23,791 bases of DNA, from positions 1-23,791 of the IMG/VR virus record IMGVR_UViG_3300017528_000128. One strand, given 5' to 3'. The stretch's first letter is position 1. Each line of letters opens with the position of its first letter. The position numbers and the translations under genes were made by a program. Shown one piece after another: positions 1-16,302 of the stretch. A model generated the notes under the pieces. The model saw only the letters and a program-made list of their open reading frames with translations. It had not been told where the DNA came from and ran no database searches. This DNA comes from a virus.

Positions 1-1026
1 CGTCATAGGCGTAGCTGCCCACCAGGAACGTTGGCGGCAGCCCGTCTGATACCGCGCCGCCGTAATCAGCGCCTACCAGCCGCACCACCTCCCCGGCCTG
101 CTCGGTGGCCAGGTTGATGCGGCTGCCCCGGTTGGTCAAATACTGGCCCGTGGTGACGGTGAACGGGCCACCCCAGGCGGCCTGCTGGTAGCGGTTAAGC
201 ACCCACTGGCCCACCGCTTGGGCCTGCCCGGCGGTCAGGTGCCCGGCGTTGGACAGGTCTATGTACTGCTCGCTGCGCCCGTACCTGGTGATCATTGCCG
301 CGTTGGTCACCGTGGTGGTGGTGAAGCTCGCCGGGGTGGTCGAGCCGCCCTTGGGGTCGGCGTTGTCCTGGTAGCGCAACACCACCGCGTTGACGACCCC
401 GGCCATGGTGCGCGGCACCGGGCTGGTGGCCACCAGCAGCCGGGTGGGTGTTACCGGCGCGGTGGGCACGGTGATGAACCGCAGGACGTTCCCTTGGGCA
501 AGGCACGCCACCTGCCACGTCAAGCCGCCGCGTGAGCACAGCAGATCGAGCATCGCGCCAATGTCCAGGCTGTCGTTGTCAGGCACCTGCCCCAGCCACG
601 CCCCGCCCGGCGGCGTGGCGAACCCGGGGTTGATCCACCGCATGCCCCTGCCGATGGCCTGGTCCACCGCATCGCTAGGCGCGGCAAGGCTGGCCCACGT
701 GGCCGTCCAGTGCGCCCGGAACTGGCCGCCGAACGTGCCCGTGCCGTGGGCCACCACCTGCCACCCGTCGCCGCCTGGCGTTGGTTCGTCAAGCTGCCCA
801 TCCCAAATCGGCCGCACCCCGGCATAGCACTGCACCTGCCGGCCCGCCTGTAGCGCCTTGGGCCGCGTCGCCACATCGGTTTGCAGGATGCACGAAAGCT
901 GGCCGGGGCCGCCGGGCACCGTGTGCGTCCAGTTGAGGCCCGACACCTGCCCGATCTGCCCCAGCCACCTGGCGTCGCCGCCGTTCGGGGCACGGGTGAC
1001 CACCTGGGCGTTAGCCTGCACCGGCA
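1..1026 (-). CDS. Minor tail protein, hub/Tal-like (3' end cut by window edge)
   Basis: An open frame of 342 codons begins at ATG 1024-1026 and runs off the left edge without a stop. Its start lies 3 bases after the stop of the giant tip gene, with a GAGGTA-type ribosome site inside that gene's last codons, so the two are translationally linked. The N-terminal third (GQIGQVSGLNWTHTVPGG, then GRQVQCYAG, IWDGQLDEP and a GWQVVAHGTG stretch) resembles the beta-barrel start of gp27-like baseplate hub or Tal proteins and the ReqiPepy6 gp37-like family of actinophages. A later part (NAVVLRYQDN, RYGRSEQYIDL) fits the same family. In siphoviruses this protein closes the tail tube below the Dit ring and opens on infection. 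Position after tape measure and Dit supports that role. The exact family was recognised by eye and remains moderate in certainty. Confidence 0.75.
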
Positions 1027-1029
1027 TAG

Positions 1030-4000
1030 CTACCTCAGCCTGTCCAGCCACCACCGTGGCAAGTAGGTGGCGAACATCGCCGGCGCGCCCGTGCGCGAGT
1101 AGGCGAACAGCCAGTTGTCCCCCGGGTCCACCGACAGCGGCGGCCCCGAGATGACCGTGTCATCCATGATCGCGCTGGCCGCGTCCCGGTCGTAGTAGGA
1201 GCCCAGCACCCACCCGGCGGCCTGGTCGGCGTCGGGGGCGTCGATGAACACGTTGGCGTAGCCCTGCGCGGTGCCGTTAAGCAGCACCGTGCTGCCCTCG
1301 GTGTCCAGCAGCAGCACGTCGTACCACACATCGCTATGGTTATCGTCGGTGACGGTCAGGGTGTACGTGGCGTCGGCCTGGTCGGCGGCCAGCCCACGCA
1401 CCGGCAACGTCACATCACCTAGCACGATCAGCCCGTTAGGCGCATCGGTGTTGGGCGTGAACGTCCGCGCCACGCTGTTGACCGACACCCGGCCCACCCC
1501 GCTGGTAGGCGGGTTGCCGCTGGCCCCGTCGTACTGCTTGATCTGCACAGTGAGGGTGCGCGAGCTGCCAGCCGAGGCGAACGTGTTAGCCACCGCCACC
1601 ACGGTGTACGTGCCATTGAACGCCGGCTGCACCCCCGGCGCGTAGGACAGCACCGGGTATTCGGTGGTGCCATCGGGCACATCAGTACCCGAAGCGTTTA
1701 CCGAAACCAGCGGCTGCAACGTGCCCGGCGCGGACGGCCCAGCCCGGTGCACGATCAGCGATTGCAGCGGGATACCCGCCGTGACGCCGTAGGTGATCCG
1801 CACCCGCCCAGACGCGCCCGCGCCACCCGGAGACTGCGCATCGCCGCCGCCGCCGCCGCCGCCGGGGCCTTGGCTGGGCGGCTGCCCCGCGCCACCCTGG
1901 GTGCCGCCAGTGCCCCCAGGGCCGCCGCCGCCGACCTGCACACCACCCGACCCGGGCGACTTGTCACCCGCGACCTGGCCGTCACGGCCACCCTGGAATT
2001 GGCCACCCGAGCCGCCGCCGCCCGCGCCGTTGGACCGCGACCGGTTGCCCGGCTCAGGCGGCCCGCCGTCGCCGCCGTCGAAGTGCACCGTGGCATGCGA
2101 GCCGGTGCCGCCAGCCGCCCCAACGCTGCTATGCGACCCGCCGACCAGCCCGCCAGGCCCCGGGTTGGACTGCACCGTCATACCGGCCGGGGTGGTGATC
2201 GAGGACACCGCGCCCGCGTGCCCGGCGCTGTGCACCGCGCCGCCGTTGCCCGGCGCACCCACGTTGGTGAGGACGTTGCTGCCAGGTGACACCGGCATCG
2301 CCGGCTCGCAGGAGTACTCCCCACCCGGGCCGCCACCACCGCCAAGGCTGCCGCCGTCGCCGCCGCCGCCGCCCGAGCCCGACGCCCAGGTTTCGCCCTT
2401 GATCGTTGTTACCCCGGCGGGCACCGGCCACGTGCCAGCGCCAGGGTTATCCCGCTGGAATACCTGCTGCACCGTGGCCGGCGCGGGCTGCAACTGGAGC
2501 GACAGCGGCGCGCGGGCCGTGCCCACCACGCCGCGCAGCAGGTACGCCGCGCCGCGTGCCTGCGGGCTGCCCACCGCCGTGCTGGACGCCTCCAGCCCGG
2601 CCAGGTAGAACTCCGCCTGGAGCACCCGCGAGCCGTCGCCGCTGTCGGTGGTGTTCCACGCCTTGATGCTGTAGGACGCCACGGCGGTGACATCAAAGTC
2701 GGTGGTCAGCGGCATGGCCGCGCTTACCCGCGTCCAAAACGGCTGGTTGGGCAGCCCCGAGCATGCGCACTTCACCGTCGCGGCCATCTGCACCGTGGTG
2801 CCGCTGGAGTCGGTCAACTGGATGTCGCACGTCACCCGGCCGCCGTGCCACACGTGGAACTGGTCCGCCGAGGTGCCCAGCCCCACCCAAAACGACACCT
2901 TGGGCCGCGTGCCTATCTGCACCGGGGTGGCCAGCACGTGGGTGTAATGCGGCCTGTCCCGCCACCGCCGCGACCAGTGCGCGGAGAACGCGCCCGCCGC
3001 CGCCTGGGTGGATTGGGACCACTGCCCGGGGTCGTTCTGGCTGGACACCGTGGCGAAGTTGTCTATCGTCACCGGGTCGGCGGGCTGCTGCCACTGGGCG
3101 CTGGGCGCGGCGAACGCGATCGTTTCCAGGTCGGTGCTGCGCCCGTACGGCAGCGCCTGGAAGGTGATGTCCATGGTGCTGATCAGCGACTTGTCTCTGA
3201 GCAGCGAGTATTCGTAGGTGGTGGCACCCGCGCGGAAGCAATCGAACACCACCGGCAGGCCGCCGCCGCGCGCCCACGTCAGCTCCCACCGGTCGCCGTC
3301 GATGGCCTGCCACAGCGCCTCACGTGCGGCGGCCAGCAGCGACCGGTCGGCCACCTGGTCACCGGTTATGGGCACCTGGATGACCACCGGCACCACCATG
3401 GTGCGGTTGGATGCGCGCCGCCCCTTGGGCCGCTCGCCGTCAAGCGCCAAGCTGGCCACCAGATCTTGCACCGGCTGCGGCATCCCCAAGTCGTAGTCCA
3501 GGGCACCGCCGGCGCGGCCCAGGCGGAAGACGGCCCCCGGGCACGCCGGGTGGTCTGAGACCACGCCGCCGGCCAGCAGCTCAAACTGGCCGGCCAGCAC
3601 CAGGCTGTCCGTGGCCGCCGCCGGGGTCGGCGGGTTGGTGACCACGATGACCAGGGCCATGCTGGCGGTGCTGCCGCCGCCGTCTGTCACCTGCACCGTG
3701 AAGGGCGCGGTTCCCGCCGTGGTGGGCGTGCCCGCGATGATCCCCGACGCCGCGTCCAGCGCTAGCCCGGCCGGCAAGCTGCCCGAGGTGATCGCCCACG
3801 TGTAGTCAGGCAGGCCGCCGGATTGCCCCAGCGCGGTGGCGTAGGACACGGTGACCACGCCAGGGGGCAGCGCGTTGGTGGTCACCGCCACCTGCGGCTG
3901 AATGGTCACCGTCAGCGTGGTGCGGTCGGTGCTGCCGTTGTGGTCGGTGACCATCACGTCGAAGCTGAAAGCCCCATCCGCGCTGGGCGTGCCGCTGAGC

Positions 4001-7000
4001 ACCCCGCCGCTGGATAGCGTCAGCCCGGTGGGCAGCGTGCCGCTGGGCTGCGTCCACGTGAAGGGGCTGGCCCCGCCGCTCAAGGTCATGGTCAGCGAGT
4101 ACGGGTCGCCCACCGCCCCATCGGGCAGCGTGCTGGGCGTGGTGATCGCCACCCCCACCGCGATGGTGACGGTGAACTGCCGGTAGCCCATGGCCCCGGT
4201 GGAGTCGGTGGCCAGCACGGTGAAGGTGAAGCTGCCCGCCGCGCTGGGCGTGCCGGCCAGGTTGCCGCCGGTCAGCGTCAGCCCTGTGGGCAGCGTCCCC
4301 GACCACAGCGACAGCGTGTACGGCCCGGTGCCGCCCGCGCTGGTGATGGCCTGGCTGTACGCCGCGCCCACGTTGCCGCCCGGCAGGCTGGCGGTGGTGA
4401 TGTGCACCAGGCTGGCCCAGTAGGTGGCGAACCCCGACGCCCAGGAGGTCATGTTGGTGGCGGTGCTCACCGTGTCGGTAAGCGTCAGCGTGCCAGCGGC
4501 CAGGCCGTTGTCCTCCTTGGCCGACCACGACATGACCGCGTTGGCCAAGCTGCCATCGGTCGTCCACCCGCTCACCGCAGGCCACGAGTTGGTGGGCACC
4601 GCCGAATACAGCACGCCCGTCATCGACTGTGCCAGGCCGCCCGTGACGCGCAGCGCCGCTATCGTCTCAGGCCCCAAGCTGGTGGAGGCGGCCAAGGCCC
4701 CGCTGGTGGCCGTGCGGTCCAGGTACTGGAAGGTGGACGCCGGGGTGGCCCACTCGTGCAGCTTGCCCCGCACGTTGGCGCTGGTGTTGGAGTAGGTGAA
4801 CGCCGCCGCCGTGCCCACCGAGCCGTACAGCGAACCGGGGTTGGACCGGTACACCCACTCCTGCACCCGCACCTGCCCGGCCGTGGTGCCCGAAGGCGAA
4901 TCGAAGGCCAGCTCCCACCCGGCGGGCATCGCGGTCGTCATGGCGCTGTCATCCATCGACACCCGGAACACCAGCATGGTGCCCGCCGTGCTGGCCACCG
5001 ACGTGGCGGAAAACCAGGCGTTAAGCGTGCCCGCCGCGCCCGTCAGGTTGTTGCTGGGCGACTGCTGCTGGGTGAACGCGCCGCTGGTGCCCGCCGCGCT
5101 GCCGATGTACTCCGCGACGTTGGAGCCGCTGGCGAACAGCCGCGTGCTGTTAGAGTCCCAGGTCAGAAACTCCGTGGTGTTGTCCAACTGGCCGAACTCG
5201 GCCCCGCCGAGCGCCGCCCACGTGCCGCCGCTGTCAGCCGATTGCCAGGCGGCCTGCCCGCTGCCGCTGTCCTTGGTGGTGGCCACCAGCAGCCCATCGC
5301 TGGCGCGGATGGCCAGCGCCCCGGCGCTCAGCGTGCCGATGAGGTTGTTCACCAAGCTGCCGCTGCCATCGGCGTGGGTCAGTTTGTGCAGGTTGTACCC
5401 GGTGGTGTACCACAGCTCGCCCACGTTGACCGGGTGGGCGGCCAGCGACGCCGACCCGGCGGAGGAGGCGTTGACGGCCAGCACCAGCGTCCAGGTGACG
5501 CCGTAGTCGGCGCTGCGCACGATGCCAGCGCCCTTTTGATCCCAGAAGTAGATGATCGGCGGGTTGCCCACGCCGCCGGGGCCGATGGAAAACGGGACGT
5601 TGAAGCCCACGTTGCCGGTGGTGCCCATCAGCCCGGTAATGCTGGTGCCTACCTGCGTCCAGCCGGTCCACACGCCGCTGGCTTGCACGTTGCGCCACAG
5701 GCCGCCGTTGTACGCCGCAGCGAGCAGCACTTTGTTGTTGGACCCGTCGCGCAGCGCGCACAACCCGATGGGGCACAGCCCGCCCGAGCCGGTGGCCGTG
5801 GCCCAGGTCGGCGTGCCGCTCACCAAGGTGAACGGCCCCGGCGGGAACGTGCCGCCGCCCGCGCCTTGGTACACCGCGCCGCCGTTGGGCGGGTTGAGGT
5901 ACTTCGGCCCCACCCCCAGATACCAAGTGGAGTCCACCGGGTCCACCGCGATGGCGTACCCCTGGGTGCTGCCAGGCAGCCCGCTGCCGCCTTGGCTGGT
6001 GGTGGAGGCGTTGGCCGCCACGCCATCGTTGGCCCAAAGCACCAGCCAGTCGCTGCTGCACACCCCCAGGTAGCCGGCGAAGTTCGGGTCCACCGCCGTG
6101 GCCCGGCCCAGGAACATGCGCGCACCGCCGCTGGCCCAAGCCCACGTGCTGCCCTGGTTGGTGGACCGGTAGAACCCCTGCGCCCCGCTGACGTACATCT
6201 TCTGATGGGTGCCATCGTTCGGATCCCACATCACCTGCGGGTTGACGAACCCGGCGTGGCCCATGGTCAGGCCCGAGCCCGCGTTCCACCAGGTCTGCCC
6301 GCCGGGCGGGACGGTGGCCGTCGACACGTTGGTGTTGTTGGCCAGCGACACCCTGGCGGTCAGCGTCTTGGTGGCCACGGTGACGGTCATCATGGCCACG
6401 TCGGTCTTGGCGGTGTCGGCGGCCGAGGAGCACGCGGCGGCGATGAGGTGGTGGCCGCTGCCGTCGTTCACCACATCCACGCTCATCCAGATGCTGGCAG
6501 CGTTAAGCACCGGGCCAAGGCCGGTGCCGCCCAGGGTGCCTATGTTTATCCAGTTGGCCGCGTTGGTCAGGTCGGCGGTCTTGTCTGCCATGTACACGCC
6601 ATCGGTGCCGCACGCCACATAGATCAGGCCGTCCAGCACCTTGATGTCCTCGGCCGCCGCCACCGCCAGGCCGGTGAGCTTGGCGAAGTTGGGCGTAGTG
6701 GTGGTGGTGTGCGCGTTGGTGCACCGCCAGATGCCGCCGAAGCCCCGGCTGCCGCCCGTGTCGTTGTGCTCGATGAACCCGGCGTACAACGTGGTGGCCT
6801 GGTCGGGGTCTTGGGCCAGCGCGCGGCAGTAGTAGTTAGACCCCGGCGCGCTGCTGCCCATGTTGGCCGTCGTCGGCCAGGTGGCCCCCTGGTCGGCGCT
6901 GCGCTTGATCCCCTTCTTGTACGTGCCGGCCCATAGGTACTTGATGGCCCCGGCGGTGTCCTCGATCAGCAGCCGCCCCACCGGCCGTGCTTGGTTGAGG

Positions 7001-7365
7001 CTCGGTATCGGGTCGGCGCTGCTGGCCCCGTTGGCCGCCCAGATCACATCGGTGCTGTTAACCGCCGTCCAGTGCAGCCCGTCGTCGGTGGACTTGACCA
7101 GCCCATCCCCGGTGCCCATGTAGGTGGTGCCGGGGAACTGCACCGACGACAAGATGCACGCGATCTGGTTGTAGTTGGCCGACGCGCCCAGGCCCACGTT
7201 GCGGCTGGAGAGGGTGTTGCCGAGGGTGGCGCTCCCAGGGTCGAAGTAGAACCCCTGGGTATCGGAGCCGATGTACAGCTTGCCGGTGCTGGGGCTGACG
7301 GTGCCGATGTCCATGCACTGCGCCAGGCCGCCGCCGTAGACGCCCCACGGTAGCCAGCTCGCCAT
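1030..7365 (-). CDS. Giant tail-tip protein: beta-propeller, Ig-like repeats, Dit-like core and glycine-rich domain
   Basis: The 2111-residue protein starts at ATG 7363-7365, directly after the tape measure stop, with GGAGG a few bases upstream. Residues 1-755 look like a beta-propeller with five Asp-box motifs (S-x-D/N-x-G-x-x-W) near residues 92, 156, 401, 618 and 709. Residues 756-990 look like an all-beta sandwich. Three putative Ig (He_PIG) repeats follow at about 991-1243, each with a GTLPTGLTL-like and a GTPSA-like core. Residues 1253-1420 match the distal tail (Dit) ring domain of actinophages (NRTMVVPVVIQVP, IDGDRWELTWARGGG, VVFDCFRAG). Residues 1430-1600 resemble a carbohydrate-binding jelly roll, 1640-1860 form a glycine-rich domain opened by WPVPAGVTTIKGETWASG, and the C-terminus is beta-rich. 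Dit proteins form a hexameric ring under the tube; the extra domains probably bind the cell surface. A Dit is normally a few hundred residues, so this is a very large fusion. Confidence 0.85.
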   Translation of the reverse strand: MASWLPWGVYGGGLAQCMDIGTVSPSTGKLYIGSDTQGFYFDPGSATLGNTLSSRNVGLGASANYNQIACILSSVQFPGTTYMGTGDGLVKSTDDGLHWTAVNSTDVIWAANGASSADPIPSLNQARPVGRLLIEDTAGAIKYLWAGTYKKGIKRSADQGATWPTTANMGSSAPGSNYYCRALAQDPDQATTLYAGFIEHNDTGGSRGFGGIWRCTNAHTTTTTPNFAKLTGLAVAAAEDIKVLDGLIYVACGTDGVYMADKTADLTNAANWINIGTLGGTGLGPVLNAASIWMSVDVVNDGSGHHLIAAACSSAADTAKTDVAMMTVTVATKTLTARVSLANNTNVSTATVPPGGQTWWNAGSGLTMGHAGFVNPQVMWDPNDGTHQKMYVSGAQGFYRSTNQGSTWAWASGGARMFLGRATAVDPNFAGYLGVCSSDWLVLWANDGVAANASTTSQGGSGLPGSTQGYAIAVDPVDSTWYLGVGPKYLNPPNGGAVYQGAGGGTFPPGPFTLVSGTPTWATATGSGGLCPIGLCALRDGSNNKVLLAAAYNGGLWRNVQASGVWTGWTQVGTSITGLMGTTGNVGFNVPFSIGPGGVGNPPIIYFWDQKGAGIVRSADYGVTWTLVLAVNASSAGSASLAAHPVNVGELWYTTGYNLHKLTHADGSGSLVNNLIGTLSAGALAIRASDGLLVATTKDSGSGQAAWQSADSGGTWAALGGAEFGQLDNTTEFLTWDSNSTRLFASGSNVAEYIGSAAGTSGAFTQQQSPSNNLTGAAGTLNAWFSATSVASTAGTMLVFRVSMDDSAMTTAMPAGWELAFDSPSGTTAGQVRVQEWVYRSNPGSLYGSVGTAAAFTYSNTSANVRGKLHEWATPASTFQYLDRTATSGALAASTSLGPETIAALRVTGGLAQSMTGVLYSAVPTNSWPAVSGWTTDGSLANAVMSWSAKEDNGLAAGTLTLTDTVSTATNMTSWASGFATYWASLVHITTASLPGGNVGAAYSQAITSAGGTGPYTLSLWSGTLPTGLTLTGGNLAGTPSAAGSFTFTVLATDSTGAMGYRQFTVTIAVGVAITTPSTLPDGAVGDPYSLTMTLSGGASPFTWTQPSGTLPTGLTLSSGGVLSGTPSADGAFSFDVMVTDHNGSTDRTTLTVTIQPQVAVTTNALPPGVVTVSYATALGQSGGLPDYTWAITSGSLPAGLALDAASGIIAGTPTTAGTAPFTVQVTDGGGSTASMALVIVVTNPPTPAAATDSLVLAGQFELLAGGVVSDHPACPGAVFRLGRAGGALDYDLGMPQPVQDLVASLALDGERPKGRRASNRTMVVPVVIQVPITGDQVADRSLLAAAREALWQAIDGDRWELTWARGGGLPVVFDCFRAGATTYEYSLLRDKSLISTMDITFQALPYGRSTDLETIAFAAPSAQWQQPADPVTIDNFATVSSQNDPGQWSQSTQAAAGAFSAHWSRRWRDRPHYTHVLATPVQIGTRPKVSFWVGLGTSADQFHVWHGGRVTCDIQLTDSSGTTVQMAATVKCACSGLPNQPFWTRVSAAMPLTTDFDVTAVASYSIKAWNTTDSGDGSRVLQAEFYLAGLEASSTAVGSPQARGAAYLLRGVVGTARAPLSLQLQPAPATVQQVFQRDNPGAGTWPVPAGVTTIKGETWASGSGGGGGDGGSLGGGGGPGGEYSCEPAMPVSPGSNVLTNVGAPGNGGAVHSAGHAGAVSSITTPAGMTVQSNPGPGGLVGGSHSSVGAAGGTGSHATVHFDGGDGGPPEPGNRSRSNGAGGGGSGGQFQGGRDGQVAGDKSPGSGGVQVGGGGPGGTGGTQGGAGQPPSQGPGGGGGGGDAQSPGGAGASGRVRITYGVTAGIPLQSLIVHRAGPSAPGTLQPLVSVNASGTDVPDGTTEYPVLSYAPGVQPAFNGTYTVVAVANTFASAGSSRTLTVQIKQYDGASGNPPTSGVGRVSVNSVARTFTPNTDAPNGLIVLGDVTLPVRGLAADQADATYTLTVTDDNHSDVWYDVLLLDTEGSTVLLNGTAQGYANVFIDAPDADQAAGWVLGSYYDRDAASAIMDDTVISGPPLSVDPGDNWLFAYSRTGAPAMFATYLPRWWLDRLR
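1786..2448 (-). repeat. Glycine-rich low-complexity domain of the tip protein
   Basis: Residues about 1640-1860 are dominated by glycine runs (GSGGGGGDGG, PGGGGGGGD and similar) and begin with the WPVPAGVTTIKGETWASG strand typical of phage glycine-rich tip domains. The plus strand shows long CCG and GCC tracts here. Such domains can fold into polyglycine sandwiches with exposed loops that contact receptors, as known for T-even gp38 adhesins. That role is inferred for this protein. Confidence 0.7.
3106..3609 (-). other. Dit-like (distal tail) domain inside the giant tip protein
   Basis: Residues about 1253-1420 of the tip protein carry the pattern of siphoviral distal tail proteins of actinophages: an arginine- and asparagine-containing strand before a PVVI strand, a helix over 1340-1355, then WELTWA and VVFDCFRAG. 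This is the part expected to dock on the tail tube. Boundaries are approximate and the match is by eye. Confidence 0.65.
3637..4395 (-). repeat. Three tandem putative-Ig (He_PIG) domain repeats
   Basis: The tip protein repeats a unit of about 80 residues three times (about 991-1070, 1073-1157, 1159-1243). Each unit has a G-x-x-Y-x-x-x-L/I start, a SGTLPTGLTL or SGSLPAGLAL strand, a G-x-L-S/A-GTPS/T turn and a F-x-V-x-V/A-TD strand. Such Ig-like units are common as stalks or spacers in surface adhesins and phage fibres; here they separate the propeller from the Dit core. Confidence 0.75.
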
Positions 7366-10353
7366 CTATCCTCCGTAACCCGCGCCATAGGCGGCCCTGC
7401 GGCTGCCCCGGTCCCAAACCTCTGCCATCCCCCTGGCGGTGCGCTGCGGCGCGGCCTCCATCGCCCTTATCAGCCGGTCCAGCTTGGCCAGCAGCGCATC
7501 GCCGTGCGCACCCACCGCCCCCGCCGACGACACGTACTCCGCCCGGCCGTCCTCCGCGAAGCTGTACGGCTGGCCGCTGCGCAGCCCGATGCCCCGCACC
7601 GGCTCAGTCACCCACCCGCCTGCCCGGTAGCCGTGGCCGTGGCCGATGACGGCAAGCTGCCCCACGCGGCCGTACCGGTGGGTGGCGTAGTTGATGCCGG
7701 CGTAGGTGTTGGCGAACCCGTCATAGATGCCCCGCCCAACGAACGGCCCCGCGTACGCCAGGAACGTGCTCATGATCGTCTGCAACAGCCCTCGTGACGG
7801 ATCGCCGGCCGCCGCGTTGCTGTCTGTAAGGTTGATGGCGAATCTGTTGCCTCCAGATTCGGTCTGCATCTGCGACAGCCACGGCCCCAGGTAGGACGCG
7901 GGCAAGCCGAGCAGCCGCAGCACAGCCAGCACGGTGCCTGCCCACTTCTGCACGCCCGGGGCGGCGGGGCCTGACCCGCCGCCCAGCGCCCCCAGGGAGG
8001 CCAGCGCGTTGCTGTTGGCCATCTTCTGCAACGCCCCCAGCAGCCCCGCGTTGATGGCCTTGGTGGACGGCAAGCTGGTCCGCACCGCCAGCCCCGGGCT
8101 GCCGCCGCTGGCGTAGGCGATGACCGCCCGGCCCTCGTTGACCGCCGCCATGGCCTGGTCGCCGTACATGCTGGACGACGAGCCCCGGATCACCCACTCC
8201 GTGTCCGACAGCATGGTCGGTATGCGGTCCCCGGTGGGGCCGCCTGGGCCGCGTATCTTGCCACCCGCCGCGCCGGTACGGGGGTGGATTAGCTGCCCCG
8301 ACTGCGCGGCCCGCCCAGCGGCCGTGAGCGGCGAGAAGTTCACCCCCACCGTGACGGTGTGCCCCTTGATGCCCAGAATCGAGTTGGTCACGTTGGTGCG
8401 GAACTGGTCGAACTGCCGGGCGGCGGTCTTTAGCTGGCCGCCGATGCCAGGTATCCACCCGAACGCGCGGGCGGCGGCGTGCAGGATCGACGCGAAGACG
8501 CCCAGGATGAAGTCCAGCAGCCCGGCCAGGACCACCCGCAGCACTTGCATGGCCACCCGCCAAGCCGTCTTCATCCACGACGTCAGCCGGTCCCAACTGC
8601 CCCGGATGTTGGCCACCATGTTGGTGGTCAGCTTCCCGAAGACCACGAACGCCGGCCCCACCACGTGCGCCAGCACCCAGGCGATGATCCGCAGCCCGGC
8701 TGCCACCGCGATCAGGTTGACGCCGATGACGACCAGGGCGGCCTTGATCACCGGCCCCAGGATCGGTGCCCACGCCACCCACACCGCCTTGGTGGATGCC
8801 CACACGTCCTTGAGGAAGGTGCCCACATCGCGCAGCGACGGCAGCGCCATCGCCCACGCCTTGGCCAGCACCGGCCCCAGCGTGCGCTCCACGTACCCGC
8901 CGATGGCCACCAGCCAGCCGTGCACCACCTGCAAGGTGTGTTCCCACGTCGATGCCTGCGCGGGCACCGGGGGCAGTATCTGCGCCGCCGTGCGGCCCGG
9001 AGACGCCGCCAGCGCGGCCGTGATGCCCGGGGCGGTACGCGGCACCACCCGCCCCGGGGAGAACCGGGACGCGCTGGCACCGGGCTGCCCAGCGCCACGT
9101 GGCACCGGGGCCAAGCTGCCGGTGGCCAGTATCCCCACCGCCGTGTGCAACGTCGCTATGGCCCGCGAGGCGGCAGGCGACACGAACGCATCCCAGAACT
9201 GCATGACCGCAGGCACACCCGTGTTAACCAGCCACGAGGACACCCGGGTCAACACCGGCAAGATCGCATCACCCAGGCGGATCATGCCCACCTGCACGAT
9301 GGCCTCAAGCCGGTGGAACTGGGCCTCGGCGGTCTTACGCTGCGCCTCCACCGCCGGGCCGTACCTGCCCATGCTGGCATTGATCTGGTCCTGCTTCTTG
9401 CGCAGCACGTCCAGGTTGTTGATCAGCCCCAAGATGGTGGCCGACGACCGGCCGCCGCCGAACGCATGCGCCAGCAGCGCCGCCGCATCGGTGGCCGACA
9501 GCCCCGAAGCGTCCAGGTGCGTTTTCAGCAACGTGATAGCCGCGATCAGCCCGCCGGGGCTGCGCATCGCCTCACCCAACTGGTGGCCGGTGACACCGAT
9601 GGTGGCCAACTGCTTGGCCGCCGCGCCGCTGGGCGCACCTAGCAACGCGAACGTCATCCGCAGCCGCGTGGCCGCCTCGGCCGCGTTCTGCCCCTCGTCG
9701 GTCATCAGCGCCAGCGCCCCGCCGACTTGCGCCAGCCCCAGCCCCCACGTCTTGGCCGCTGGCAGGATGCCCGTGCCGATGGCCGACACGAAATCGGACA
9801 GCTTCATGTTGCCCGCGCCGATGATGGCGTTGACGGTGGCGGCGGCCTGGGTGAAGTTGGTTGCCCCGCGTATGCCGGTGCGCCACGCCCCGGCCAGCGC
9901 GTTGGTGGTGGACTCCAGATCAGCGCCGCCCACCGCCGCCAAGTCGCTGGCGGTGCGCAGCGCCTTCATCGCGTCTACGTTGTCCAGGCCCACGCTTTTC
10001 AAGTGGTACAGCGCGGCGGCCAACTGCTGCGGCCCCTGCTGCGCGCGGGTGGCCCCCAACTCCAGCACCTGGTTGGACAGCACCCCCACGTCCTTGGCCG
10101 TGGCCCCGGCCTGGGTGCGGATGCGGATCATGGCCGCTTGGAACTTGACGGCCTGGTCGGCGGCCACCGCGCCGATGCCGATAGCCGCGCCGATGCCCGC
10201 CAGGGCGGTGACGGCGGATGCCTTGAACAGCTTGCCGAACCTGGCCCCCGCAGGGCTCGCGCCCTCCTCCACATCCCGGGCCACCTGGCGCTTCAAGTCC
10301 GCGCCGTCCACGCGCAACCGTACGAAGGCGTCAGCCACCGTCAAGCCTGGCAC
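7366..10353 (-). CDS. Tape measure protein with transglycosylase-like domain
   Basis: This 995-residue protein starts at GTG 10351-10353 with GTGAGGG upstream, and ends one base before the tip gene start. It sets tail length and is threaded inside the tube. Residues about 70-290 match the phage tail tape measure family (FQAAMIRIRTQAGAT, SVGLDNVDAMKALRTASD, LPAAKTWGLGLAQVGGALAL). Hydrophobic stretches near residues 50-65, 405 and 535-625 fit tape measures that insert in the host membrane. Residues about 800-905 look like a lysozyme or soluble lytic transglycosylase fold (QTESGGNRFAINL, then DPSRGLLQTIMSTFLAY, and NTYAGINYATHRYG), with the glutamate of TESGG as candidate catalytic residue. The segment 697-750 (GDRIPTMLSDTEWVI) is common near tape measure C-termini. 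At the family's usual rise of roughly 1.5 angstrom per residue, the tail would be about 150 nm. Confidence 0.93.
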   Translation of the reverse strand: MPGLTVADAFVRLRVDGADLKRQVARDVEEGASPAGARFGKLFKASAVTALAGIGAAIGIGAVAADQAVKFQAAMIRIRTQAGATAKDVGVLSNQVLELGATRAQQGPQQLAAALYHLKSVGLDNVDAMKALRTASDLAAVGGADLESTTNALAGAWRTGIRGATNFTQAAATVNAIIGAGNMKLSDFVSAIGTGILPAAKTWGLGLAQVGGALALMTDEGQNAAEAATRLRMTFALLGAPSGAAAKQLATIGVTGHQLGEAMRSPGGLIAAITLLKTHLDASGLSATDAAALLAHAFGGGRSSATILGLINNLDVLRKKQDQINASMGRYGPAVEAQRKTAEAQFHRLEAIVQVGMIRLGDAILPVLTRVSSWLVNTGVPAVMQFWDAFVSPAASRAIATLHTAVGILATGSLAPVPRGAGQPGASASRFSPGRVVPRTAPGITAALAASPGRTAAQILPPVPAQASTWEHTLQVVHGWLVAIGGYVERTLGPVLAKAWAMALPSLRDVGTFLKDVWASTKAVWVAWAPILGPVIKAALVVIGVNLIAVAAGLRIIAWVLAHVVGPAFVVFGKLTTNMVANIRGSWDRLTSWMKTAWRVAMQVLRVVLAGLLDFILGVFASILHAAARAFGWIPGIGGQLKTAARQFDQFRTNVTNSILGIKGHTVTVGVNFSPLTAAGRAAQSGQLIHPRTGAAGGKIRGPGGPTGDRIPTMLSDTEWVIRGSSSSMYGDQAMAAVNEGRAVIAYASGGSPGLAVRTSLPSTKAINAGLLGALQKMANSNALASLGALGGGSGPAAPGVQKWAGTVLAVLRLLGLPASYLGPWLSQMQTESGGNRFAINLTDSNAAAGDPSRGLLQTIMSTFLAYAGPFVGRGIYDGFANTYAGINYATHRYGRVGQLAVIGHGHGYRAGGWVTEPVRGIGLRSGQPYSFAEDGRAEYVSSAGAVGAHGDALLAKLDRLIRAMEAAPQRTARGMAEVWDRGSRRAAYGAGYGG

Positions 10354-10396
10354 TAACCCTCACCCCCAGACCGCCCAGCACAGCCGCACACGGTAA

Positions 10397-14471: not shown

Positions 14472-15392
14472 TCAGGCGGTGAGGATTTCGCAGGCCGACC
14501 CGGGCTCCTGCACGATCGGCACCGTCTTGCGGCGGCCCTGCAAGTCCCAGGCGTCGTTGCCGTCGAGGCGGATGCTCTTGATCTGCACCGCCAACTGGTC
14601 CATGGCGTAGCCCGGTGCGTTGTCCATCTCGTCGGCCATGCCGCCGAGCTGGGTGCTGTCGAGCACGTAGGGGTGCGCCGCCACGCTGGACGGCGACACC
14701 ACGATGATCAGCCCCGCGATGATTTCCAGCGTGCCGGTGTAGATCGGGTTACTGGTGGTCTCGCGGCGCAGGGCGTTGGTGATGGCCTGGTCGGACATCA
14801 TGTAGGCGTAGTGGCTGTCGTCCACCAAAATGGTGTCCGGGTGGTAGCCCAGGTTCTTGCCGTACACGTGTGCCTTGGCCAGCAGGATGTCCTGGAAGAT
14901 CGTTCGCGTGGCCGCGTTCGACCAGACCGCCGTGGCGGTGGTGGTGTCGGTCACGGCCGACGCGATGGCCGACATGGCCTGCCCATCCACCTGCTGGATG
15001 ATGCTGTTGACGACCTTGCGCATGTTGCGGTCCACGGTCTGCCCGGCGTACACGTTCCGGGCAACCTCCTCGTCGGTGAGCCGCACCTTCTGGCCCCACT
15101 TGGACACCGAGGCGATGCCAGCGGTGCCGGTGGGCAGGTTGGCGAACGGGTACTCCGCGCCCGGCCCCACCGCTTCCACGGTGCGGTCAGTAACAAAGGG
15201 CTCGCTCAGCTCGTACAGCGCAGCGCCGCCGCTGGTGCGGAAACGCTGGGTGAGCAGTTGGTCCGCGACGAACCGCAGGTCGGTGTAGTCGCGCAGCCGC
15301 CGCCTGATCTGGGTGGGCGACTGGAGGAACCGGGAGATGGTCTCAAGGTCGCCGCTCAGTGTCGGTGGGGGGGCCGGGTAGGAACCTGGCAT
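14472..15392 (-). CDS. Major capsid protein, HK97 fold
   Basis: The 306-residue protein starts at ATG 15390-15392 behind a strong GAAAGGA site and ends at TGA 14472-14474. It builds the icosahedral shell. The sequence follows the HK97-fold capsid group of actinophages: SRFLQSPTQIRRRLRDYTD near the start, ADQLLTQRFRTSGGAALYEL, EYPFANLPTG, SKWGQKVRLTDEEVARNVY, a long spine helix VDRNMRKVVNSIIQQVDGQA, and ILLAKAHVYGKNLGYHPDTI with VDDSHYAYMMS. The N-terminal delta domain is nearly absent, in line with a separate scaffold supplied by the protease fusion upstream. There is no added Ig or insertion domain. Neighbours (decoration genes before, connectors after) agree with this call. Confidence 0.93.
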   Translation of the reverse strand: MPGSYPAPPPTLSGDLETISRFLQSPTQIRRRLRDYTDLRFVADQLLTQRFRTSGGAALYELSEPFVTDRTVEAVGPGAEYPFANLPTGTAGIASVSKWGQKVRLTDEEVARNVYAGQTVDRNMRKVVNSIIQQVDGQAMSAIASAVTDTTTATAVWSNAATRTIFQDILLAKAHVYGKNLGYHPDTILVDDSHYAYMMSDQAITNALRRETTSNPIYTGTLEIIAGLIIVVSPSSVAAHPYVLDSTQLGGMADEMDNAPGYAMDQLAVQIKSIRLDGNDAWDLQGRRKTVPIVQEPGSACEILTA

Positions 15393-15880: not shown

Positions 15881-15903
15881 GCCACCAGGTGCTACCTGGC
15901 GGC
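15881..15903. terminator. Hairpin over the stop codon of the first decoration gene
   Basis: Arms 15881-15890 and 15894-15903 pair as a 10-bp stem with one G-U pair in the minus-strand RNA, around a 3-base loop that includes part of the stop codon at 15892-15894. No U-run follows. It may act as a weak terminator or as a stability element between the two decoration genes. Confidence 0.4.
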
Positions 15904-16302
15904 CATCCACCTGACCTTGGTGTTGTCGGACGCCGTGGTCAGCGCCACGCCGAGGATGGCCCGGGTGCCCACCACATCCGCCGCCGTGGGCGTTGTGACG
16001 GCGGCCAGGGTGCGCACCTGCCGGTTGGCGTTGGTGGCCGTGACGACCTGGTCGCCAGCGGTCACCGTGCCATCCGCGATGGACTCGTGGATGGGGCCGA
16101 AGCACCACACGCTGATCCGCGCGCCGCTGTTCTGGTCGGATTGGGCCAGGCCCACGACGTTGACCGCCGGGGTGGCACCAGGGGTGAATGGGGCCACGGT
16201 GCCGCTGCCCGTGACCACCAGCACGTCTCCGCCCTTGCACGAGGCGGACAGGGTGAGGGTGATGACCTCGCCCTCAACCGATACGGGTGTGTAGTCAGGC
16301 AC
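15892..16302 (-). CDS. Capsid decoration-type protein 1 (DUF2190-like)
   Basis: The 136-residue protein starts at GTG 16300-16302, 6 bases after the protease-scaffold stop. It shares the DYTPV start and the strand order of its neighbour: SASCKGGDVLVVTGSGTVAP, VVGLAQSDQNSGARISVW, HESIADGTVTAGDQVVTA, then ADVVGTRAILGVALT and VRWMAAR. This pattern is that of DUF2190-like head decoration proteins. The two copies align along their whole length but differ at most positions, so the duplication is old, and the two may bind different sites or form a mixed trimer. It has two cysteines (in SCKGG and VWCFG) that the paralogue lacks at these places. Function is inferred from family pattern and location. 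Confidence 0.78.
   Translation of the reverse strand: MPDYTPVSVEGEVITLTLSASCKGGDVLVVTGSGTVAPFTPGATPAVNVVGLAQSDQNSGARISVWCFGPIHESIADGTVTAGDQVVTATNANRQVRTLAAVTTPTAADVVGTRAILGVALTTASDNTKVRWMAAR

Follow-up and report, generated by a model that had tools for sequence, protein, structure and literature searches.

A distal tail protein preceded by a GH74-like propeller cassette in a probably actinobacterial phage from soil

The window analysed here is a 23,791-base virus record with a GC content of 71%, from a virus of bacteria found in soil, and it encodes a large fused tail protein that is a distal tail (Dit) protein by its gene position, its family homology and its predicted ring fold. It is a decorated Dit, and it departs from the pattern of the known 'evolved Dit' proteins in both the position and the size of its addition. 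The explanation that we favour, and consider likely, is an evolved Dit of a probably actinobacterial siphovirus with a glycan-binding, and possibly glycan-cleaving, cassette grafted at its N-terminus. The graft would have three parts, namely a double beta-propeller of GH74-like type, a beta domain and a spacer of three He_PIG repeats, and the Dit core would be followed, as usual, by a CBM-like jelly roll and a C-terminal domain. The features are collected in Table 1.

Table 1. Features of the fused gene and its neighbours, in window positions; residues are those of the fused protein.
Feature	Position	Strand	Evidence
Whole fused gene, 2111 aa	1030..7365	-	ORF and translation, orthologues, coding signature
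Residues 1-775, Asp-box beta-propeller region, probably two tandem 7-bladed propellers, GH74-like	5041..7365	-	Asp boxes, PDB profile, hhalign
Residues 776-990, all-beta domain ('cap')	4396..5040	-	Also in L021 and L058 (L058 profile match 4.6e-11)
Residues 991-1245, three He_PIG (Ig-like) repeats	3631..4395	-	PF05345, E 9.6e-28, three stretches
Residues 1253-1440, Dit (distal tail) ring core	3046..3609	-	Family matches PHROG_33 and PF05709; AlphaFold2 and Foldseek
Residues 1441-1620, CBM-like jelly roll after Dit core	2506..3045	-	AlphaFold2 pLDDT about 90; Foldseek CBM11, CBM22, CBM28
Residues 1642-1859, glycine-rich domain (Gly_rich_2)	1789..2442	-	PF21722, E 6e-7
Residues 1861-2111, conserved C-terminal domain	1033..1785	-	Profile matches in most complete Dit-family genes
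Asp35, near the GH74 RTDIGG catalytic Asp (putative)	7261..7263	-	Invariant in five sequences
Asp439, near the GH74 GDIxGF catalytic Asp (putative)	6049..6051	-	Invariant in five sequences
Tape measure protein (TMP) gene	7366..10353	-	PHROG_167, E 2.5e-53; immediately upstream of fused gene
Next tail gene, hub/Tal position, cut by window end	2..1054	-	Position and order kept in L003, L004, L005

The fused gene and its genomic setting

The minus strand of the window encodes terminase, portal, capsid, neck and tail-tube proteins, followed by the TMP, the fused gene and a gene in the hub position. The order of TMP, fused gene and hub-like gene is the canonical Dit position and is kept in the contigs L003, L004 and L005; the gene downstream has no significant family match and is called hub-like by position alone. 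In most contigs of the wider Dit family, the ORF upstream of Dit is TMP-like. Most relatives of the portal and terminase belong to actinobacterial phages, and the best matches include phages of Arthrobacter and Brevibacterium. The tail-tube protein has its matches in Streptomyces phages, so that an actinobacterial host is likely for this virus; two scans of cellular genomes with the Dit alignments found no prophage. Elsewhere in the window, two long antisense ORFs (4402-6936 (+), 844 aa; 8120-10396 (+), 758 aa) are probably a by-product of the high GC content and the strong third-position bias. The small gene at window 15892-16302, ahead of the capsid gene, is duplicated in relatives, where the extra copy is 36-39% identical (L001:1071-1481 and L001:1528-1923; L007:989-1396 and L007:1438-1833).

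A reading of the sequence made earlier, hereafter the sequence-only reading, had described the frame without its strand, had named homologues of identical domain order as a check, and had named an artificial joining of two genes as one way in which the proposal could fail. The frame is genuine and lies on the minus strand, with an ATG start and zero internal stops. Further, the frame begins right after the TMP stop codon, with TACGGAGG ahead of its start that is present in the fused relatives too, and third-position GC stays at 0.84-0.95 over the entire frame, including every domain junction. Homologues with the identical domain order were found, three of them full-length (L003, 2471 aa; L004, 2465 aa; L005, 2193 aa) and all three from metagenome records other than the window's, together with the truncated L001, which spans the first 866 aa of the fused protein before the contig ends. 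L001 and L004 look like one phage, giving a count of the window plus three lineages. The window is itself a metagenomic fragment, and its frame could in principle be an artefact, or the Dit could also be made separately from an internal start, leaving the ring mostly unfused; we consider either scarcely credible. In particular, the recurrence of the fusion in separate metagenome records makes an artificial joining of two genes very unlikely, the coding signature is continuous through the frame, and a start codon and ribosome site are not conserved ahead of the Dit core. Neither the whole fused protein nor its Dit piece has a match among 50,697 phage records.

Compared with the window, the fused relatives are 63-68% identical in the propeller and 49-70% in the beta domain; the values are 79-84% for the Dit and 76-79% for the C-terminal domain, and the major capsid protein is 95-99.7% identical. 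The part proposed to contact the host diverges faster than Dit and capsid. The window's capsid gene (14472-15392, minus strand) is 99.7% identical to L001:1981-2901 and likewise to that of L004, and the propeller there is 66-68% identical, a markedly uneven divergence inside a single group of phages.

The Dit core and the length of its leader

The window sequence by itself has zero Dit matches in Pfam and PHROG family searches, and the Dit fold at residues 1253-1440 is supported through homologues and a structural model. The Dit alignment, together with L056 and L089, led to 39 loci from IMG/VR, of which 36 contigs remain once the fused ones are set aside. At a permissive limit (E up to 1) and with a 31-member alignment, PHROG_33 ('distal tail protein Dit') is matched by 19 of the 31 family members, with a best value of 3.1e-6, and Pfam Sipho_tail (PF05709) by 15 of the 31, with a best value of 2.7e-4; a PDB sequence search with the Dit profile gave zero matches. 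AlphaFold2 on the 31-sequence alignment predicts a model with a mean pLDDT of 75.4 and with values that mostly exceed 80 within the two folded domains, compared to a pLDDT of 32 on a 4-sequence alignment (about 80% identical). Foldseek relates the predicted Dit to the baseplates of lactococcal phage p2 (2wzp_P, 1e-4) and mycobacteriophage Douge (8zdo, 5e-5), to lambda tail-tip chains and, in a viral library, to the Lactococcus P078 Dit (6.9e-7). TM-scores stay low, since the model leaves it uncertain how the two domains lie with respect to each other (pTM 0.47). The structure prediction and fold search that the sequence-only reading had proposed for this region thus lead to phage baseplate and Dit entries, and the jelly roll that it placed after the Dit is CBM-like by fold. 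Candidate Dit-like C-terminal cores behind long leaders in Jumbo gp22, Perlina and Zuko gp24 were rejected, being unconfirmed by family searches, and the 4-sequence Dit profile found nothing among the tail proteins of Kromp, Ibantik, Kumao, Jumbo, Perlina, UNTPL and Zuko.

The whole domain order noted earlier also holds, running from the Asp-box propeller region through the beta domain, three He_PIG repeats, Dit core and jelly roll to the glycine-rich stretch, after which a C-terminal domain completes the chain. This last domain is common to the non-fused Dit relatives; no Pfam family was found for it, and a viral scan using it alone found nothing. No known family in Pfam matches the all-beta domain either, and the He_PIG repeats are a probable stalk.

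The length of the leader sets the fused protein apart from its relatives. Across the 36 other contigs with the Dit family, the stretch ahead of the core is no longer than 173 residues (32 or fewer in 30 of them) and the propeller cassette occurs in none, so the approximately 1250 residues ahead of the core are exceptional, in agreement with the earlier claim. L099, L102, L104, L113 and L056, for example, share with the window the Dit core (38-56% identity) as well as the jelly roll and the C-terminal domain, whereas the wider family, these five included, lacks the propeller, beta domain and He_PIG block. L126-L130 are Dit relatives of 1957-2182 aa whose Dit begins at residues 168-174, with about 170 extra N-terminal residues of no assigned type, and L128 has a Laminin_G_3 domain after its Dit core.

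The GH74-like propeller region and the movable cassette

Five Asp boxes, at residues 92, 156, 401, 618 and 709, bear out an N-terminal propeller region. A propeller profile built from the window, L003, L004, L005 and L021 was compared with a PDB library by sequence only, where the matches were all Asp-box propeller proteins with GH74 first: the best were the GH74 xyloglucanases 2cn2/2cn3 (4e-7) and 4lgn (1.3e-5). The same profile also matched 3b7f, and GH74 likeness is common to Asp-box propellers in general. An hhalign comparison of the propeller with two cellular GH74 genes (L136 and L138) gave a probability of 96.8% and a score of 88.3, where 30 column-shuffled controls scored 24.7 or less. 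A single propeller, for example a 10-bladed Vps10/sortilin-like one, accompanied by other beta domains and recognising protein instead of glycans, would agree with a weak Sortilin-Vps10 match in L004 (E 0.005) and with the presence of just five clear Asp boxes; we regard it as improbable, since the GH74 chain matches, the best of the profile, spread across both halves of the enzyme, the 775 residues fit 7+7 blades, and two stretches, 60-300 and 471-766, each give an alignment of their own to GH74. The Asp-box propeller of the sequence-only reading is therefore retained, but the region is probably two tandem 7-bladed GH74-type propellers and not the single one that it described.

GH74 xyloglucanases have this same architecture, two tandem 7-bladed propellers with Asp-box blades over about 750 residues, which the fused protein probably has too, judging by profile and length. 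They are secreted enzymes that break down plant polysaccharides, whereas the fused protein is a predicted part of the virion and has low identity to them. The fused protein resembles GH74, of which it is a candidate member.

Two invariant aspartates bear on whether the cassette may be an enzyme. Asp35 lies in the context GGG...LYIGSDTQG and Asp439 in SSDW, close to the GH74 motifs GGGFV...LIYARTDIGG and GLEET...GDIxGF, respectively; one published GH74 enzyme has the catalytic residues D70 and Asp477 (PMC10317168). The GGG and LY motifs co-align at Asp35, but Asp35 itself is gapped in the automatic alignment and Asp439 falls two columns off the catalytic Asp, so that catalysis is hypothetical. 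The two residues are 404 positions apart, compared to 412 and 366 in the two cellular GH74 genes. Ten Asp are invariant in all five propeller sequences and two other invariant pairs are similarly spaced, making the spacing alone weak evidence.

The adhesin proposed in the sequence-only reading keeps its propeller cassette, but the retention of an Asp near both GH74 catalytic positions means that an enzyme is possible. The cassette might be primarily a GH74-type tail-tip glycanase, with adhesion secondary, and might remove capsule, exopolysaccharide or plant-derived glucan so that the cell is reached by the Dit and hub only afterwards. The invariance of the Asp pair across five sequences, one of them only 31% identical, its spacing close to that of one cellular enzyme, the published GH74 pair, and the insertion in L003 and L004 of what may be a second glycosidase would all suit such a role; the misplaced or gapped aspartates, the weak overall GH74 similarity and the use of Asp-box propellers as pure binding domains (Vps10, PMC2716378) all tell against it, and we judge it rather unlikely.

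The favoured reading, a glycan-binding cassette grafted onto a Dit, gains a further aspect from L021. Its hub-like protein of 1710 aa (L021:12954-18083) carries a propeller, beta domain and three He_PIG repeats in the same order as the window, with 31% identity in the propeller, ahead of a hub-like minor tail protein (PHROG_1885, 4.6e-13). L021 also has its own short Dit (L021:10586-11476) directly after the TMP (PHROG_33, 1.3e-4; SPP1_Dit, 7e-4). The cassette therefore sits on a hub-like protein in L021, compared to the Dit in the window, and it moves; further, the beta domain and He_PIG occur in L058 on a different tail protein. By these sequence comparisons, the cassette is not tied to Dit and looks like a movable docking tool.

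Within the first He_PIG repeat, L003 and L004 have an extra domain of about 355 residues that is absent from the window and from L005. The inserted domains (L003:6386-7450, L004:8231-9286 and L058:11327-12196) are 290-355 residues long, and the one in the He_PIG of L058 is a distant relative of those in L003 and L004 (22% identity, E 6e-5). Their conserved WQE, DxY and E[VM]GS motifs suggest a glycosidase; no Pfam or PDB glycosidase match was found for them. The most far-reaching proposal, in which a catalytically competent double-propeller glycanase of GH74 type would sit in the Dit ring (about six per virion at the tube mouth), the cassette would be transferable between Dit and hub, and the Ig repeats would house glycosidases, is in our estimate a shade less likely again than the primary glycanase role.

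Relation to known Dit proteins and proposed mechanism

In staphylococcal phages phi11 and 80alpha, a beta-propeller receptor-binding protein at the siphophage tail tip serves host binding. That propeller is part of a separate receptor-binding protein, whereas the window's is fused to Dit. The closest known systems are the evolved Dits of lactic-acid-bacteria siphophages, such as the 659 aa Dit of OE33PA, whose CBMs are inserted either into the galectin loops or at the point where the N-terminal belt passes into the galectin domain (PMC8540738, PMC7291167). Like the window protein, they are Dit ring proteins enlarged by carbohydrate-type modules and encoded in the order TMP, Dit and Tal, and the predicted CBM11/22/28-like jelly roll supplies the window protein with a putative CBM by fold. 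In evolved Dits, however, the core is N-terminal with small CBM additions after or inside it, whereas in the window it begins at residue 1253, and the residues ahead of it include an enzyme-like double propeller. Within the literature searched, with most subscription journals lying outside it, an N-terminal double-propeller addition to Dit is not described.

Known Dit proteins form a hexamer under the tail tube, bound to the hub trimer (PMC7291167). By analogy, the Dit part would assemble into a ring of six subunits between the tail-tube end and the hub, with one cassette per subunit, six in total, projecting outward on the Ig-like stalk; if the propellers are in tandem, twelve would be displayed. 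A polysaccharide of the host surface or of a matrix would be held by the cassette in the saddle that lies between its two propellers, with avidity gained from the several copies, and the cassette might also cleave the bound glycan. We infer the hexamer, the outward display together with the crown geometry of the sequence-only reading, the receptor or glycan ligand and the cleavage.

Overall, these findings indicate that a double propeller as large as an enzyme can be attached through an Ig-like stalk to the N-terminus of a Dit, and that a second tail-tip protein can bear this cassette too. Fragments 1-775 and 1-1245 are defined candidate units for glycan binding or cleavage. Further, the findings suggest that the evolution of tail tips proceeds by adding whole glycan-recognition cassettes to any available tip protein.
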